Origin: Nocardioides ganghwensis
Lineage (GTDB): Bacteria; Actinomycetota; Actinomycetes; Propionibacteriales; Nocardioidaceae
Length of the DNA: 64,000 nucleotides
Direction of reading: 5' to 3'
Assembly (NCBI RefSeq): GCF_014779655.1
Contig: NZ_JACXYX010000010.1
Location: 62,001-126,000, forward strand
Positions 1-58,986 of the stretch are shown one piece after another. Made by a program: the position numbers and the translations under genes. Position 1 is the first letter of the stretch. Every line of letters begins with the position of its first letter. The notes beneath the pieces were generated by a model, which saw only the letters and a program-made list of their open reading frames with translations, was not told the DNA's origin and made no database searches.

Positions 1-133
1 GTATTCGTGCAGGGAAATCGCAGGAATCCTCAAGAAAACCGGGTACGTGTGTGTTCGCGCACGCGGGCCCCTAGTTTCGTCATCGGAGCCATCGTGGGGA
101 TGGCGCCTTCCGAGGAACGTGGGGGTTCCAGGC

Positions 134-595
134 ATGTCCCAGTACAACCGCAGGACGATCGTGCGCGGAGCCGCGTGGACCATTCCCGTCGTCGCCGTCG
201 CCTCGACGGCCCCGGCCTTCGCCGCGTCGACCGACACGCCCGTCGTGCCGGGACCCGGCGCCTTCACGGTCTGCAAGCAGCCGGGCGGGCCCAACGGCCC
301 GAACTGCCAGGGCTACAAGTTCTCGCTCAACCTGACGGTTCAGCCCAGCGACACCTGGACGATCCAGTTCACCCAGCTCACCGTCGACGGGACCAACTTC
401 CTGCCGCAGACGAGCCCGCAGACCTTCCAGGTGACGGCGACCGCGAACCTCATCAACTTCGTCTTCTGCACCGCCTCGAGCCCGAGCCAGTTCAACCTGA
501 CGCTGCGCTACTCCGCCACCAACCAGAGGACCGGCGTGACCACGACGGGCCTCGGCGGCACCTACGTCCTCAGCGGCGTCCGGAACTGCGCCTAG
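134..595 (+). CDS. Secreted protein with Tat-like signal peptide, function unknown
   Basis: 153 residues from the ATG at 134, chosen because it opens a clean signal peptide; a longer reading frame from 47 adds residues with no signal character. The N-terminus carries an Arg-Arg pair (NRRTIVRG), then a hydrophobic stretch (TIPVVAVASTAPAFA) ending in a probable signal peptidase site near residue 32. The rest is rich in Thr, Asn and Gln with four cysteines (VCKQ, NCQG, FCTA, RNCA) that could form two disulfides, which suggests a small exported beta-rich domain. Short secreted proteins with this leader are common in Nocardioides-type genomes. No enzymatic motif was seen and no function is proposed. 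Confidence 0.75.
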   Translation: MSQYNRRTIVRGAAWTIPVVAVASTAPAFAASTDTPVVPGPGAFTVCKQPGGPNGPNCQGYKFSLNLTVQPSDTWTIQFTQLTVDGTNFLPQTSPQTFQVTATANLINFVFCTASSPSQFNLTLRYSATNQRTGVTTTGLGGTYVLSGVRNCA

Positions 596-598
596 CAT
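593..598 (+). promoter_or_regulatory. -10 box TAGCAT, 7 nt before the start at 606
   Basis: TAGCAT shares its TAG with the stop codon of the preceding gene. It sits 7 nt from the GTG of the cytochrome b561-like gene, the spacing expected for a leaderless transcript. No clear -35 box. Confidence 0.45.
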
Positions 599-605
599 TC
601 ACCGG

Positions 606-1169
606 GTGCCCGGACCCGAGCCCCGCGTGGGCTACCGCGCCTCGCAGAAGGTGCTGCACTGGCTGACCGTGCTCGCGGTCGCCGCCCAGCTGGCGGTCGG
701 CTACAACCTCGACCTCGACGACGGGTGCGACCCGGCGGGGGAGGACCGCAGCGGCGGCGACACCAGCGACGCCGAGGAGGAGCGCCTCGACCGCCTCGAG
801 GACGCGTGCGAGGCGCGCGCCGACGACCACGACCTGCTCGGGGGCGGCTTCGACCTCGCCGAGGTGCACCTGCTCCTGGGGCTGGCGGTGCTGGCGCTGG
901 GCGTCGTACGGCCGCTGTGGCGTCGCGTCGCCGGCCTCCCGCCGTGGTCCGAGCACCTGTCACCCGCCCGGCGGCGTCTCGCGACCCGGACCGAGCGCGC
1001 CCTGATGACGCTTCTGGTGGTCGTGCCGCTCACCGGGCTCGTGCTCGTCGGCACGGGCGACGACGCCTGGGTGCCGCTGCACGTCGGCGCGCACGTGGCG
1101 TTCTTCGTGGCCCTGGCGGCGCACCTGTCCAGCAACCTGCGACCGGCGATCCTGCGCCGGATGTTCTGA
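606..1169 (+). CDS. Cytochrome b561-like four-helix membrane protein
   Basis: 187 residues from a GTG start. Four hydrophobic segments (about residues 15-35, 85-105, 125-148, 157-175) carry histidines placed as in di-haem b561/Ni-Fe hydrogenase b-type cytochromes: LHWLTV in helix 1, a His in EVHLLLG before helix 2, and LHVGAHV plus AAHLSSN near helix 4. The likely role is haem-dependent electron transfer in the membrane. An acidic insert of about 45 residues between helices 1 and 2 contains two cysteines (DDGC and DACE) and is unusual. The gene is convergent with the thioredoxin-rhodanese gene, only 15 bp away. Partner and substrate are unknown. Confidence 0.65.
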   Translation: MPGPEPRVGYRASQKVLHWLTVLAVAAQLAVGYNLDLDDGCDPAGEDRSGGDTSDAEEERLDRLEDACEARADDHDLLGGGFDLAEVHLLLGLAVLALGVVRPLWRRVAGLPPWSEHLSPARRRLATRTERALMTLLVVVPLTGLVLVGTGDDAWVPLHVGAHVAFFVALAAHLSSNLRPAILRRMF

Positions 1170-53093: not shown

Positions 53094-53099
53094 TAGTTT
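53094..53099 (+). promoter_or_regulatory. -10 box TAGTTT, 6 nt before the Mur ligase start
   Basis: TAGTTT, 6 nt, GTG at 53106: leaderless arrangement, separating this gene from fabG-fabI. Confidence 0.5.
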
Positions 53100-53105
53100 C
53101 CCCCG

Positions 53106-54800
53106 GTGACCTCACTCGTCGAGCTGCGCGTCCTCGAAGGCCCGAACCTCTACTTCCCGCGTGCGGCGGTCAAGCTGACCCTCGACGTCTCCACGATCAC
53201 CGAGGCGGGCGAGGAGACGGCGCTGCGGTTCGCCCGGCGCATCGGGCTGCGCACGACGCGGCCGGGAGCCGCGGGCTCGGGCTTCCGCCAGCGGTTCGCG
53301 CTGCGGGCCGTGGAGCGGCTGGTACGCGCCATCGCCGCCGAGGCCGGCACGCGTCGCCTCGCCGTGCGCGTACGCCCCACCGGTGACCCGGACGTGGTCG
53401 TCGTCGCCTTCCCCTGGCGCAACCGCGGCCGCGCGCGGGCGCTCGGCGAGGCGGTCGCGCACGCCCTCGACGCGCTCCCCACGCCCGACGTCGAGGCCGC
53501 CGTCAGTGCCGCCGCCCACGAGGTCGCGGCGGCCCCGAGGGGCGACCGGCCGGCCACGATCACGCCGACCATCCCGGTGGTCGCGGTGACCGGCACCAAC
53601 GGCAAGACGACCACCAGCCGGATGATCGCGCACATCGCGCGCACGAGCGGGCTCGTCGTCGGGTGGTCCAACACCGACGGCATCTACCGCGACGGGGTGC
53701 TCGTCGAGGCCGGCGACTACTCGGGCCCCTCGGGCGCCGGGCGGGCACTCGGGCTCGAGGGCGTGCAGCTCGCGGTCACCGAGACCGCCCGCGGCGGCAT
53801 CCTGCTCAAGGGGATCGGCATCACCCGCAACGACGTGTCGGTCGTGACCAACGTGACCGCCGACCACCTCGGACTGCAGGGCATCGACACCGTCGACCAG
53901 CTCGCCGAGGTGAAGTCCGTCGTCCCGCGCATCACCCGCAAGGACGGCTGGGCGGTGCTCAACGGCGACGACCCGCGCGTGCTCGCGATGCAGGCGGTCA
54001 TCTCCGCACAGCCGTGGATCTTCAGCCGCGACCCCGACTCGCCCGCGGTCCGCGAGGTGCTCAGCCACGGGGGTGGTCGCGCCACGACGGTCATCGACGG
54101 GTGGATCACGGTCCTCGCGCCCGGAGTCGACCCCGACCCGCTCGTCGAGCTCGTCGACGTGCCCATGACGCTCGCGGGGCTGTCGCGGTTCAACATCGAG
54201 AACGCGCTCGCGGCCGCCTCGGCCGCGCTGGCGATAGGGCTGTCCCGCGACGACGTGGTCGCGGGCCTGACCTCGTTCCGCCCCGACGCCGAGCACAACC
54301 CGGGCCGGATGAACTTCTTCTCCCTGCCCGGAGAGGTCAGCGTCGTGATGGACCTGGCGCACAACGAGGCCGGGCTCGAGGCGCTGCTGGAGATCATGTC
54401 GGGCGTACGCCGCCCCGGCGCGCGCCTGCTGCTCGGCCTCGGTGCCGTCGGTGACCGCACCGACGAGCTGATCGGAGCGCTGGGCGAGATCGGGGCCAAG
54501 GGCAGCGACGTGGTCGCCATCGGCCACAAGGAGCGCTACCTCCGCACGCGCACCATGGACGAGGTCGACGTCCTGCTGCGCGCGGGTGCCGCCCGCGTCG
54601 GCGTCACCGACATCGACACCTACCCCACCGAGGTCGCCTGCCTCGCCGCGCTCGTCGACCGTGCGCAGCCCGGCGACGTCGTCGGCCTGATGTGCCACGC
54701 CGAGCGGCAGGAGGCGTACGACTGGATCGCCGCGCACGGCGGAACCCCGGACAGCCCCGAGACCCTGTCGCAGAAGGTGCGCGCGGCGAGCGAGGACTGA
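53106..54800 (+). CDS. Mur ligase-family protein, CphA paralogue without ATP-grasp
   Basis: 564 residues from a GTG. The first 150 residues resemble the N-terminal domain of cyanophycin synthetase (RVLEGPNLYF against RVYRGPNVWS in cphA). Then follows directly a Mur ligase domain: VTGTNGKTTTSRMIAHI near residue 160 and NVTADHLGLQGIDTVDQLAEVK near 250, nearly collinear with the C-terminal half of the cphA product 2.4 kb away. The ATP-grasp domain that adds aspartate is absent. LAHNEAGLEAL near 420 fits the third Mur domain. It may ligate an amino acid to a peptide or polymer; substrate unknown. Confidence 0.8.
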   Translation: MTSLVELRVLEGPNLYFPRAAVKLTLDVSTITEAGEETALRFARRIGLRTTRPGAAGSGFRQRFALRAVERLVRAIAAEAGTRRLAVRVRPTGDPDVVVVAFPWRNRGRARALGEAVAHALDALPTPDVEAAVSAAAHEVAAAPRGDRPATITPTIPVVAVTGTNGKTTTSRMIAHIARTSGLVVGWSNTDGIYRDGVLVEAGDYSGPSGAGRALGLEGVQLAVTETARGGILLKGIGITRNDVSVVTNVTADHLGLQGIDTVDQLAEVKSVVPRITRKDGWAVLNGDDPRVLAMQAVISAQPWIFSRDPDSPAVREVLSHGGGRATTVIDGWITVLAPGVDPDPLVELVDVPMTLAGLSRFNIENALAAASAALAIGLSRDDVVAGLTSFRPDAEHNPGRMNFFSLPGEVSVVMDLAHNEAGLEALLEIMSGVRRPGARLLLGLGAVGDRTDELIGALGEIGAKGSDVVAIGHKERYLRTRTMDEVDVLLRAGAARVGVTDIDTYPTEVACLAALVDRAQPGDVVGLMCHAERQEAYDWIAAHGGTPDSPETLSQKVRAASED

Positions 54801-54843: not shown

Positions 54844-55215
54844 TCAGACGTCGCCGGGGTCGACCTGCTCGCCGGGGGCGCCGATGTCGAGGTCGCCCTC
54901 CACGATCATCGCCGTCATGCCGCGGGGCGACCGGGTCTCGTGCACCTCTCCGGGCTCCCACACCGCGGCCTCGCCGGGGCCGAGGCGGCGTACGACCAGC
55001 TCGGCGCCGCTCACCTCCGCCTCCCCGCTCAGCACGACCAGGAGCTGGCGCGCGACGGCCGGGTGACGGCCGATGGTCCCGCCCGGGGCGAGCGTGACCG
55101 CCACCAGGTGCGCGTCGGCGCTGATGCCGAAGGCGCCCACCGAGAAGCCACGGCTGCCGTGGGCCTCGATCGGGCGGTGGGGCAGCCCGGACAGGTCGAG
55201 GACCCTCACGCGCAC
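54844..55215 (-). CDS. Cupin-fold small protein next to cphA
   Basis: 123 residues from a GTG at 55215 (another GTG two codons inward is possible). A single cupin barrel: GGTIGRHPAVARQLLVVLSGEAEV and GEAAVWEPGEVHETRSP supply the two cupin motifs, with His residues at the usual metal positions. Only 19 bp after cphA on the same strand, so probably cotranscribed. It may sense or bind a small ligand in nitrogen storage; no direct evidence. Confidence 0.7.
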   Translation of the reverse strand: MRVRVLDLSGLPHRPIEAHGSRGFSVGAFGISADAHLVAVTLAPGGTIGRHPAVARQLLVVLSGEAEVSGAELVVRRLGPGEAAVWEPGEVHETRSPRGMTAMIVEGDLDIGAPGEQVDPGDV

Positions 55216-55234: not shown

Positions 55235-58009
55235 TCACGAGTCCGTCGCCGGTGGCGTGTAGTCCGGGTCGGCCGAGGGGGCGTCGGGGTTGGCCCCCGA
55301 GCCCGCCTGGGCGACGTCGGACCAGGCCTCCAGCTCCGCCATGACCTCGGCGTGCTTGTCGACGCACACCACGACGAGGTCGCCGCGGTTGGCGCGGCTC
55401 ATCGCGTGGCGGACGGCCTCGATCTCGTCGAGCACCAGCTCGGACTGCTTGCAGCGCGCGCCCTCGGCCATCGCGGTGCGCACACCGTCGAGCACCAGCT
55501 GGGCCGTCGCGCCGCGCTCGCGGCCGCGCAGGGCGACGTCCTCACGGACGATGCACACGTCGAAGTGCTGGGCCGCGATGTGGCCGAGCTCGACCATGTC
55601 CTGGTCGCGGCGGTCGCCGGCGGTGGCGATGATGCCGATCCGCGAGGGCCGGGCCAGGTCGTGCGAGGACTCCAGCGAGTCACCGACGCGGTCCACGAAG
55701 TCGCCGAGCATCTTCATGCCGGGGGCGTTGTGGCAGTAGTCGACGATGACGTTGACGCCGTTGACCTCGACCTCGTTGAGGCGGCCGGGGGAGAGGTAGT
55801 AGTTGGTCGAGAAGGTCCGCAGGCCCTGGCGGATGTCGTGCAGCGGCGCACCTGCGGCGAAGGCGGCGGCCGCCGCGGCGAGGGCGTTCTGCACGTTCAT
55901 CCGGGCCCGGCCGCTGAAGGTCGCGGGCAGGAGGTGGGTCCAGGCCAGCTGCATCTCGCGGCGGCCGTGCTGGACGACCATCATCTCGCCGCGGTCACTG
56001 GGGTTGAGGACGATCGCCTTGCCGCCGCGTCGGCAGTGGGCGTCGATCATGTCGCGCACCTCGCTGCCGGGCTCCTCCATCGAGAACCACACGACCTGGC
56101 CGGAGCACTTGCGGCGCATCTCGCGCACCAGCGGGTCGTCGGCGTTGAGGACGGCGTGCCCGTCGCGCGGCACAGCCTCGACGATCACGGCCTTGACGTC
56201 GGCGAGCTGCTCGACGGTGTCGATGCCGCGCAGGCCGAGGTGGTCGGGCTGCACGTTGAGGACCACCGCGACGTCGTTGCGCTCGTAACCGAGGCCCTCG
56301 CGGAGGATGCCCCCGCGGGCGACCTCGAAGACGGCGAAGTCGACGCGCGGGTTCTGCAGCACCATCCGCGCGGACCGCGGCCCCGACGCGTCGGCGCGGA
56401 TCAGCAGCCGCTCGTCGATGACCACGCCGTCGGTCGAGGTCATGCCGACCTTGCGGCCCATGCCCTTGAAGATGTGGCTGATCATCCGGCTGGTGGTGGT
56501 CTTGCCGTTGGTGCCGGTCACGGCCACGATCGGGATGCGCGAGGTCGCGCCGGGCGGGAACAGCATGTCGACCACCGGCTTGGCGATGAACTGGGGCTCG
56601 CCGATCGTCGGGTGGGTGTGCATCCGGAAGCCGGGCGCGGCGTTGACCTCGCAGATCGCGCCGCCGGTCTCGCGGACCGGCTGGGTGATGTCGGGACAGA
56701 TGAAGTCGATGCCGGCGATGTCGAGGCCGACCATGCGCGCGGCCTCCTCGGCGATCTCGACGTTCTCCGGGTGGGCCTCGAAGGTGCGGTCGATGGAGAT
56801 GCCGCCCGTCGACATGTTGCCGGTCAGCGCGAGCTTGACCATCTCGCCCTCGGCGGGCACCGAGTCGAGCTTGTGTCCCTGGTCGGCGAGGACCTCGATC
56901 GCCGCCTCGTCGACCTTGATGCGGGTCAGCACCTTCTCGTGCCCGACGCCGCGCCTGGGGTCGGCGTTGGTGAGGTCGACGAGCTCCTCCACCGTGGACG
57001 TGCCGTCGCCGGTGACGGACGCGGGCACGCGCTCGGCGATCGCGACCATCCGGCCGTCGATGATCAGGCAGCGGTAGTCCTTGCCGGTGACGAACGACTC
57101 GACGATGACGTTGCCGCGGCGCGACTGGCCGTGCGCGACCGGGAACGCCGCCCGCACGTCGGCCTCGTCCTGCAGGTCGAGGCAGACGCCGCGGCCGTGG
57201 TTGCCGTCGAGCGGCTTGAGCACGACGGGGTAGCCGATGCGGCGGGCGGCGGCGACGGCCCCGTCCTCCGTGCGGACCGACTCCTGCTTGGGCACCGGCA
57301 GCCCAGCGGCGCCGAGGAGCTTGGTGGTGAGGTCCTTGTCGGAGGCGATGTCGACCGCGATCGAGGAGGTCTCGGAGGTCATCGTGGCCCGGATCCGCTT
57401 GGCGTGGACGCCCTGCCCGAGCTGGACGAGGGAGTACTGGTTGAGCCGGATCCACGGGATGTCCCGCGACACCGCCTCGTCCACGATCGCCTGGGTCGAC
57501 GGGCCGAAGGCGGTGCGCTCGGCGCGACGGATGAAGTCGTCGCGCTCGGTCTCCCAGTCGAAGTCGGGGTCGCCCTCGACGAGGTGGTTGACCAGGCGTA
57601 CGGCGAGGCGGCCGGCCGTGAGGCCGACGTTCTCCTCGATGTAGCCGTAGATGATGTTGTAGCGGCCGGGCTGTCCCTTGACCTGGCGGGTCTTGCCTCG
57701 GCGGATGTCGTGGCCGACGAGCTGCTGCAGGGCGAGGGCGACGTGCTCGGCGACGTGGCCGAGCCAGGTGCCCTCGTTGAGCCGCTCGAGGAAGCCGCCG
57801 CGGCGTCCGCGCGAGCAGGAGTGCTCACGCAGGCCGGGCAGCATCGCGACGAGGTCGTCGGTGAAGCCGGGGATGGTGTTGGTCGGGAACTGCTCGAGCG
57901 AGCCCAGGTCGACCACGAGGTGGATCGACTTGTCGTAGGACCAGACGTTGGGGCCGCGGTAGACCCGGGTCTCGACGATCTCCAGGTCGGGGGTGGGCCG
58001 CTCGCTCAT
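55235..58009 (-). CDS. cphA: Cyanophycin synthetase
   Basis: 924 residues from the ATG at 58009, which overlaps the cphB stop. Polymerises aspartate and arginine into cyanophycin. N-terminal domain: RGPNVWSYDK, CSRGRRGGFLERLNEGTW and GHVAEHVAL (HxxEH). ATP-grasp domain about 225-480: DKDLTTKLL, PVVLKPLDGNHGRGV, ICEVNAAPGFRMH. Mur ligase domain from about 490: VTGTNGKTTTSRM, NVQPDHLGLRGIDTVEQLADVK, VDYCHNAPGM. Length is usual for CphA1. Located with cyanophycinase, giving both synthesis and breakdown. Confidence 0.95.
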   Translation of the reverse strand: MSERPTPDLEIVETRVYRGPNVWSYDKSIHLVVDLGSLEQFPTNTIPGFTDDLVAMLPGLREHSCSRGRRGGFLERLNEGTWLGHVAEHVALALQQLVGHDIRRGKTRQVKGQPGRYNIIYGYIEENVGLTAGRLAVRLVNHLVEGDPDFDWETERDDFIRRAERTAFGPSTQAIVDEAVSRDIPWIRLNQYSLVQLGQGVHAKRIRATMTSETSSIAVDIASDKDLTTKLLGAAGLPVPKQESVRTEDGAVAAARRIGYPVVLKPLDGNHGRGVCLDLQDEADVRAAFPVAHGQSRRGNVIVESFVTGKDYRCLIIDGRMVAIAERVPASVTGDGTSTVEELVDLTNADPRRGVGHEKVLTRIKVDEAAIEVLADQGHKLDSVPAEGEMVKLALTGNMSTGGISIDRTFEAHPENVEIAEEAARMVGLDIAGIDFICPDITQPVRETGGAICEVNAAPGFRMHTHPTIGEPQFIAKPVVDMLFPPGATSRIPIVAVTGTNGKTTTSRMISHIFKGMGRKVGMTSTDGVVIDERLLIRADASGPRSARMVLQNPRVDFAVFEVARGGILREGLGYERNDVAVVLNVQPDHLGLRGIDTVEQLADVKAVIVEAVPRDGHAVLNADDPLVREMRRKCSGQVVWFSMEEPGSEVRDMIDAHCRRGGKAIVLNPSDRGEMMVVQHGRREMQLAWTHLLPATFSGRARMNVQNALAAAAAAFAAGAPLHDIRQGLRTFSTNYYLSPGRLNEVEVNGVNVIVDYCHNAPGMKMLGDFVDRVGDSLESSHDLARPSRIGIIATAGDRRDQDMVELGHIAAQHFDVCIVREDVALRGRERGATAQLVLDGVRTAMAEGARCKQSELVLDEIEAVRHAMSRANRGDLVVVCVDKHAEVMAELEAWSDVAQAGSGANPDAPSADPDYTPPATDS

Positions 58010-58986
58010 CGATGATCTCCCTGGGTCGGGTCGGGGGTCTGGCGGGTGGTCGTACGGCGCAGCTTGAGGCGTCGCCGGATCGCGGCCGGGGTCGCGTCGG
58101 CAGCGGCGATGTCGCGGGCCAGCTGGCGCAGGTCGCGGGTCGCCTCGGCGAGCTCGTCGGCGTCCTCGGGCTCGACCACCGGCTCCTGGGGCACGAGGGC
58201 ACGGGTGGACAGGTTGAACACGGTGCCCTCGGGCAGCGTGTGGAACACGACGCCGCTGGCCAGCAGGGGCGAGGAGCGGGTGGCCTCGTAGGCGTTGGAG
58301 ACCATCCGGGCGCCGTCGAAGATCGTCACGGCCCCCTTGCCCATGACCCGCATCACCAGGTCGCCGTCGACGTCCTCGACGAGGCCGCAGGTGTCCTCGT
58401 CGACGCCGATGCCGAGCAGCTGGGGGCTCTGGGCCACGATCATCAGGAGCCGGCCGTAGCGGTTGCGCTGGTCGAAGTGCTGGTCGATCACCGCCGTGTC
58501 CACCAGGCCGAGGCCGGCGGCCACCTGGGTCATCCGCTGCTTCGGCGTGGCTCCGCCCACGCCGAAGGCCACCATGTGCGAGGACTGGATGCTGGCGCCG
58601 GCCGAGGTGCCCGCGACGACCGCGCCGCGGTCGTGGGCGCGCCTGATCGCCTCGCCCACCGGGGTGCCGCACACGATCGCGGAGAGCTTGAGCTGGTTGC
58701 CGCCGGTCATGAACACGCCGGTCGCCTCGTCGAGGGCCTTCACCAGTGCGGGGTCGTGGGCCTGCTCGCGGGACTCGGGGCGTACGGAGTCGACGCGGGC
58801 CGCACCGAACTTGGTGAACAGCGCGTCGTAGACGTCGACCACCTCACGACCGAGCGAGGACGCGGTCGGGATCACCGCGATGCGGGCGTCACGGCCCCCG
58901 CTCAGGGCCACGAAGTGCTTGAGGATGGTCGGCTTGCGCAGCTTGTCCTCGGCGCCACCGATGATCATGAGTGGTCCCTTGGGCAT
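58006..58986 (-). CDS. cphB: Cyanophycinase
   Basis: 326 residues. Serine exopeptidase that cuts cyanophycin to beta-Asp-Arg dipeptides. The nucleophile elbow VVAGTSAGASIQS near residue 125, the early GGAEDKLR loop, TGGNQLKLS near 93 and DQHFDQRNRYGRL near 170 are conserved. The C-terminal 50 residues are charged and Arg-rich, longer than in cyanobacterial enzymes. First gene of the minus-strand unit cphB-cphA-cupin, with a -10 box 7 nt before its ATG. Confidence 0.93.
   Translation of the reverse strand: MPKGPLMIIGGAEDKLRKPTILKHFVALSGGRDARIAVIPTASSLGREVVDVYDALFTKFGAARVDSVRPESREQAHDPALVKALDEATGVFMTGGNQLKLSAIVCGTPVGEAIRRAHDRGAVVAGTSAGASIQSSHMVAFGVGGATPKQRMTQVAAGLGLVDTAVIDQHFDQRNRYGRLLMIVAQSPQLLGIGVDEDTCGLVEDVDGDLVMRVMGKGAVTIFDGARMVSNAYEATRSSPLLASGVVFHTLPEGTVFNLSTRALVPQEPVVEPEDADELAEATRDLRQLARDIAAADATPAAIRRRLKLRRTTTRQTPDPTQGDHR

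Follow-up and report, generated by a model that had tools for sequence, protein, structure and literature searches.

Cyanophycin synthesis is commonly attributed to a single enzyme, CphA1. A locus in which a complete cphA gene is faced by a gene for a second, shorter CphA-like ligase raises the question of whether this second protein repeats a step of the synthetase, does something else to the polymer, or has nothing to do with it. The window analysed here, a stretch of 64,000 nucleotides from Nocardioides ganghwensis, holds such a locus, in which the following genes lie side by side:

53106..54800, plus strand: gene for a protein of 564 residues with a CphA-type N domain and a Mur ligase domain (GTG start, from the open reading frame list)
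54844..55215, minus strand: small cupin-domain gene between the former and cphA, present in some related loci and not in others (Pfam)
55235..58009, minus strand: cphA, complete with N, G and M domains, 924 residues, Cx19HxxEH motif present (TIGR02068, 1180 bits)
58006..58986, minus strand: cphB, cyanophycinase, 326 residues from ATG (TIGR02069, 235 bits)

For the protein encoded at 53106..54800 and its family we use the name NM, after the N and M domains. With these scores for CphA and cyanophycinase, the neighbour of NM is a true cyanophycin locus, as the initial annotation had held. The start of cphA overlaps the stop of cphB (ATGA), and NM, on the plus strand, faces cphA and cphB on the minus strand.

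What kind of protein is NM? Its Mur_ligase_M (residues 161–373, 63.8 bits) and Mur_ligase_C (residues 400–529, 41.9 bits) domains would suit an ordinary peptidoglycan-type Mur ligase, such as MurE or MurT, that lies beside cphA by chance. However, the cyanophycin synthetase model TIGR02068 matches NM with 358 bits, albeit over residues 153–531 only (profile positions 476–849 of 862) and below its equivalog cut-off of 850 bits, versus 90 bits for MurE, which among 25 of the 28 matching families is the best peptidoglycan ligase model and has a cut-off of its own of 373 bits; within those 25 families, NM reaches the cut-off of no peptidoglycan Mur family (MurC–F, MurT). Moreover, NM carries a CphA N domain, and other parts of the same genome (contigs C5 and C10) give five more Mur_ligase_M matches. 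An ordinary Mur ligase, contradicted by the TIGR02068 score and by the match of the whole structural model to CphA1 described below, therefore has a negligible likelihood. By BLASTP, NM is collinear with the neighbouring CphA (39% identity over 434 columns), and Pfam gives no ATP-grasp match over all 564 residues. Of 146 related stretches, the best 80 show 63–94% identity to NM, the nearest named relatives being Nocardioides proteins (90–94%), and the catalytic residues are invariant in 49 aligned NM rows; NM is thus no chance reading frame. The NM stretch of Nocardioides sp. B-3 (L068:8001-9680) has three in-frame stops, which may reflect a frameshift in this copy or a fault in the sequencing.

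For structure prediction, a check that the initial annotation had proposed, we aligned the NM of the window with 48 of the best 80 (of 146) relatives, giving 49 Nocardioidaceae-like rows; L068, with its stop codons, was left out, as were L014, L018 and others. The resulting AlphaFold2 model of the whole protein (pLDDT 90, pTM 0.88) aligns with TeCphA1 (7wae_A) at Z 53 over 521 residues, positions 2..545 of the model falling on 1..877 of the chain, and with 7lgq, 7lgj and 7lg5 at Z 48.5–49.4; over this CphA1 set including 7wae, 521–524 residues are aligned. Two CphA1 entries with 706–719 resolved residues score low (7lgn, 33.4; 7lgm, 30.2), and the best structure other than CphA is a MurE at Z 32.9. 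The Z 53 alignment, extending over N and M, suggests that both domains are placed as in CphA1, with the G domain stepped over. This confirms that NM is a reduced CphA relative that has the N domain and a complete M domain and is without the G (ATP-grasp) domain. Its two parts are:

53106..53561, plus strand: N domain, residues 1–152, a diverged CphA N domain by prediction, basic, without Cx19HxxEH (structure, hhalign, motif scan)
53562..54740, plus strand: Mur ligase (M) core and lid, about residues 153–545 (Pfam, structural alignment)

The first 150 residues give no Pfam match above cut-off, and the N domain was also folded and compared on its own. In isolation it is predicted with a pLDDT of 94; rows 1–11 of the structure comparison are all CphA1 or CphA2 (Z 8.2–11.0), followed by a row at Z 6.0, and the seven Foldseek matches at E ≤ 0.001 are CphA1 without exception. 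In hhalign, the NM N profile matches CphA N domains with E 4e-6 over 130 columns (probability 87%), versus E 0.08 for the CphA G domain, the CphA N-domain profile having been built from 17 of 33 CphA rows since the other 16 failed the start-motif search. The whole model, the isolated-domain fold and the profile–profile comparison all identify the N-terminal part as a CphA N domain that has diverged. The picture drawn in the initial annotation, of a CphA-type N domain joined directly to a Mur domain collinear with that of the neighbouring CphA, with the ATP-grasp domain missing, has thereby held up, and neither of the contrary outcomes it had named, an N-terminal segment unrelated to CphA or a grouping with a well-characterised Mur ligase, occurred. 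According to a published study, the Cx19HxxEH peptidase site makes primers in most CphA1 enzymes, about a fifth of which do without it (PMC9262961). The motif is found in 0 of 24 NM versus 22 of the 24 neighbouring CphA, the two CphA that lack it (L082 and L152) being cut or broken reading frames. The actinobacterial NM N domain is also basic, with a mean charge of +8.8 in 120 residues versus about −3.3 for the CphA N domain of the same loci, which was cut by position and includes one outlier row (L152, the broken frame). The NM M domain, on the other hand, is more acidic than that of CphA (−11 vs +2.7), and the N-terminal 180 residues of a related protein from Shinella, discussed below, have a charge of −13, so that charge gives no single direction on function. 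Weak matches to PF18921, the CphA N domain, were also seen in short frames of 136–350 residues in 33 genomes of other Actinomycetota (e.g. G188, G221 and G242), which are possible stand-alone N-domain relatives.

Is NM tied to cyanophycin outside the window? We found NM in 25 of 58 relatives searched, in 24 of 396 Actinomycetota genomes and in 29 of 393 genomes of the class, with CphA also present in 25/25, 23/24 (the exception is 67% complete) and 29/29, respectively. The three samples overlap and, pooled by handle, comprise 71 different NM genomes, 70 of them with CphA; in the 396-genome sample the NM of G206, G249, G324 and G344 was recovered as fragments or with its N part missing, and in the 393-genome sample the CphA of G511 is partial. 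This tie in 70 of 71 genomes favours an action on cyanophycin over one on an unrelated polymer. A strict two-way pairing was dropped, as 7 of the 36 matching genomes in the 393-genome sample have CphA-type matches and no NM: three of these, from one genus, have two actinobacterial-type CphA copies, one has a CphA grouping with the proteobacterial enzymes of Tatumella and Acinetobacter, and three have a diverged CphA lineage. In three actinobacterial genomes that lack NM (G469, G489 and G504; loci L172, L173 and L175), a second full-length CphA is accompanied by a separate cyanophycinase. NM is spread over several actinomycetotal families, and Shinella and Ruegeria encode related proteins next to cphA; viral contigs yielded 0 NM relatives.

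At the level of individual loci, 98 stretches were examined, of which 88 hold both NM and cphA, nine hold NM without cphA and one is without NM. The two genes are convergent in 88/88 loci holding both (L013 and L158 among them apparently being the same contig), with cphB on the cphA strand in 84; in the other four, cphB was not found or falls beyond the stretch. Eight of the nine genomes whose NM stretch is without cphA have CphA elsewhere, and one has none; among those eight CphA, one is split over two contigs and one has an in-frame stop. The CphA of the genome behind L083 (G455:C17:172416-175187) shows one in-frame TAG. Within 16 diverse loci (L141-L156), cphA and cphB adjoin NM in every case. 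The next gene cluster after these two and their shadow frames is found in 11 of 21 loci, a count blurred by the shadow frames.

The gene start has a feature of its own:

53094..53099, plus strand: TAGTTT, −10-like element, 6 nucleotides before the NM start codon (motif scan across loci)

A TANNNT element stands 5–8 nucleotides 5' of the NM start codon in 66 of 71 loci tested, versus 17 of 8000 random positions, and the 71 loci gave no match to Shine-Dalgarno patterns before the start. These 71, out of the best 80 of 146, are those with a start codon at the tested place and are close relatives, for which reason we count one feature and not 66 independent ones. In Nocardioidaceae loci it is therefore probable, as far as the sequence pattern goes, that the NM transcript is leaderless and has its own promoter. 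NM was also considered as an operon mate of fabI and rejected, fabG-fabI being upstream in 11 of 21 loci (a shadow-frame-based count) and NM having its own −10-like element. A probable separate promoter in Nocardioidaceae, together with the altered contact and lid residues described below, would be in keeping with NM making a product of its own, such as a dipeptide, a capped primer or another poly-amino acid, and not acting on cyanophycin. We regard this as improbable, because cphA and cphB stand beside NM in all 16 diverse loci, compared with only 11 of 21 for the next cluster, and NM without CphA is seen in just one of 71 genomes, an incomplete one.

If NM belongs to the cyanophycin system, does it do what the M domain of CphA does? 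The residues that bear on this are:

53592..53612, plus strand: P-loop GTNGKTT, residues 163–169, K167 corresponding to SuCphA1 K499 (alignment)
53862..53867, plus strand: catalytic pair D253 H254, corresponding to SuCphA1 D585 H586 (alignment; role from PMC9262961)
53928..53930, plus strand: R275 at the place of SuCphA1 E607, charge reversed (alignment)
54459..54551, plus strand: lid segment, residues 452–482, with T452, L455 and K475 at CphA R778, D781 and D801, and the motif YLR(G/T)R (alignment)

In two structural studies, CphA1 residues K499, T500, T522, E558, D585 and H586 are named for ATP, Mg or catalysis (PMC9427784, PMC9262961). Their places are taken by K167, T168, T190, E226, D253 and H254, identical in 24/24 diverse NM; K270, D416 and R451 likewise stand at CphA K602, D745 and R777. 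The contact residues differ. SuCphA1 E607, a cyanophycin contact as reported in PMC9262961, is E in 35 of 36 CphA, R or K in 21 of 24 NM and R in both proteobacterial NM, and the S542 place has S in 36/36 CphA and G in 26/26 NM; each of the two is kept in all of 10 further CphA. In the lid, R778 is kept in 36, D781 in 36 and D801 in 35 of the first 36 CphA, and among 24 NM the residue is a different one in at least 23, in 24 and in 24, respectively, the D801 region of NM carrying a one-residue insertion at which the alignment shifts (the Shinella and Ruegeria proteins read N/L once and E/E in a second alignment). However, the 10 further CphA keep R778 in 9, D781 in 7 and D801 in 7 cases, three of those with a changed D801 having intact G motifs, so that the lid distinguishes NM from CphA less clearly. 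The second CphA copies of L172, L173 and L175 have R, L or S at D801. In proteobacterial NM the D781 place is taken by E or D, and no more than 16 of 24 NM have K at the place of K475. By analogy with MurE, we take the D801 region to be the place where the incoming amino acid is bound.

These residues bear on another possible function for NM, a repeat of the second step of CphA in which arginine (or lysine) is joined to aspartate side chains missed by the CphA M domain, making NM a gap-filler or rate booster. The fold and the N–M arrangement are those of CphA1, R805 and R807 of the RGR motif are kept in 24 and 23 of 24 NM, and the lid residues altered in NM vary in some full-length CphA as well; this last point takes weight from the tailoring and other-amino-acid readings discussed below and adds some to a gap-filling role. 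Against such a role, E607 is reversed in 21/24 and S542 changed in 26/26 NM although both are nearly fixed in CphA, and no deficit to be filled is visible, since the adjoining CphA keeps E607, R778, D781 and D801 in 24/24 loci. On balance, we consider a gap-filler unlikely.

The descent of NM was followed in two M-domain trees, one with 67 and one with 65 sequences, which include 24 actinobacterial NM, the Shinella partner protein and one Ruegeria partner protein. In both trees these NM and partner proteins form one side of a branch apart from all sampled CphA (support 100/99), with a program warning about long branches where Shinella and Ruegeria join; in one tree, two Mur outgroup rows are identical and the root rests on one long branch. 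A clade that would make NM a recent duplicate of actinobacterial CphA was rejected (AU p 0.001), as was a clade of NM with an N–M protein from Legionella, described below (AU p 0.002). NM and CphA distances correlate with r 0.94 across 24 loci, 0 of 2000 permutations giving a value as high, which suggests that the pair has mostly been inherited together. Correlated divergence would also be seen if NM were mainly a structural or regulatory partner in a mixed oligomer with CphA, its own chemistry being secondary or dead, though shared inheritance alone would give the same. The TeCphA1 M core is described as touching three G cores in addition to its own N domain (PMC9427784), which would be in keeping with such a partner. 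The catalytic set is kept in 24/24 NM, however, which would be unexpected for a dead partner, and we hold this role to be very improbable.

What NM does, on which substrate and at which place, we infer from its domains, its catalytic residues, its linkage to cphA and its changed residues. Our preferred reading, to which we give close to an even chance, is that NM is an ATP-dependent ligase of the cyanophycin system with a tailoring or completing role, for which the acceptor, or the place on the polymer, is more likely than not other than that of the arginine step of CphA. The CphA-like N domain would hold the polymer or its carboxylate-rich backbone, and the M domain would activate a carboxylate of the polymer as an acyl phosphate and join an amino acid to it, acting after or beside CphA. 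Without a G domain, NM should be unable to lengthen the aspartate backbone in the way that CphA does. Linkage and fold suggest that its substrate is cyanophycin, or this polymer in a more acidic state; given the altered contact surface and part of the lid, it more likely than not joins a different amino acid from the arginine step, or joins it elsewhere on the polymer. A more specific version, in which NM adds an amino acid other than arginine or lysine (or caps or extends side chains at free carboxylates) to give a chemically different stored polymer, with a similar change having arisen separately in G-reduced Deinococcus CphA copies that carry arginine at E607, is possible but, in our view, rather doubtful. 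Many cyanophycin-bearing actinobacteria have, near the synthetase gene, this shortened CphA relative, which retains the domain for holding the polymer and one of the two ligating domains and probably attaches something to the polymer. Most cphA genes in the sampled actinobacteria are paired with this second ligase of a distinct clade. If NM changes the polymer, the composition and breakdown of actinobacterial cyanophycin and its use for modified polymers would need re-examination. An enzyme that has one active site and a domain for holding the polymer might also be of practical use in cyanophycin modification.

How does NM compare with the systems already known? According to PMC10206079, CphA1 has N, G and M domains, and CphA2 has a single active site and uses beta-Asp-Arg dipeptides as substrate. 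NM shares the spatial arrangement of N and M with CphA1 (SuCphA1, 7lg5; TeCphA1, 7wae; TmCphA1, 7lgn), at Z 48.5–53.0 to 7wae, 7lgq, 7lgj and 7lg5, and in 24/24 cases has the same residues for ATP, Mg and catalysis in the M domain (P-loop Lys, Mg ligands, DH pair). It differs from CphA1 in being without the G domain, which adds aspartate to the backbone, in the Cx19HxxEH motif that most CphA1 have and 0/24 NM do, in the replaced E607 and S542, and in forming a separate clade.

Second CphA homologues near cphA are already known in other bacteria. In Ralstonia eutropha H16 the second copy is named cphA' and lacks part of a loop. Such betaproteobacterial homologues are, as described, extra to cphA, like NM. 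Second homologues are recorded for R. eutropha H16 and for Sideroxydans (as 'CphA1, CphA2' side by side), with no cyanophycin detected in wild-type R. eutropha, in PMC8560796, PMC11362209 and PMC5178258; the passages concerned in PMC11362209 and PMC5178258 give no function for them. In the mainly open-access literature searched, no account of the NM family was recognised, and the words 'Mur ligase' are absent from the main text of a 2023 survey of cyanophycin genes.

Closer counterparts are the 'Mur ligase family proteins' encoded directly 3' of cphA on plasmids of Shinella zoogloeoides, Roseateles sp. XES5 and two Ruegeria, which are linked to cphA as NM is. The Shinella and Ruegeria partners group with NM in the trees (100/99, with Shinella and one Ruegeria used) and have R at E607 and G at S542, and the Shinella protein gives no ATP-grasp match. 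Unlike the convergent actinobacterial NM, the Shinella, Roseateles and Ruegeria genes are on the same strand as cphA. The N part of the Shinella and Ruegeria proteins (about 190 residues) is weakly related to that of NM (hhalign E 5e-4, 44 columns around GPNLY) and has no hhalign match to the CphA N domain, and in Shinella it is acidic whereas that of actinobacterial NM is basic. A Legionella adelaidensis plasmid encodes a protein of 622 residues (L140:5302-7170; NZ_LR134428.1 54195-56063) that has the CphA N and M domains and is missing G, and whose gene, like that of NM, accompanies a cyanophycinase gene, here directly beside it, along with one for an isoaspartyl peptidase. Unlike NM, it keeps the N-site peptidase motif, R778, D781 and D801, and has H at E607; by sequence, this is a loss of G separate from that in NM. 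Second CphA copies in Deinococcus (L139:4678-7194, L137:4663-6744 and L160:2872-5046) are without the G-domain motifs GNHGRG and EVNAxPG, with R at E607 in 3/3 and G at D801 in the two that reach that far. The second CphA-like gene of Deinococcus KNUC1210 is annotated as two reading frames. With R at E607 in both NM and the Deinococcus copies, two lineages in which G was lost or degraded have undergone a parallel change at this contact.

Finally, CphA2 (7ta5, 8fxh, 8fxi) is also a reduced member of the CphA superfamily and shares its N-domain fold with NM (Z 8.7–10.2). The initial annotation had described NM as the opposite reduction, and the structures agree: those of CphA2 match the neighbouring CphA best at 164–579, not at the end of the M half, the match ending inside the M domain. 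CphA2 combines an active G domain with a reduced M domain, and NM, conversely, has no G domain and a complete M domain.
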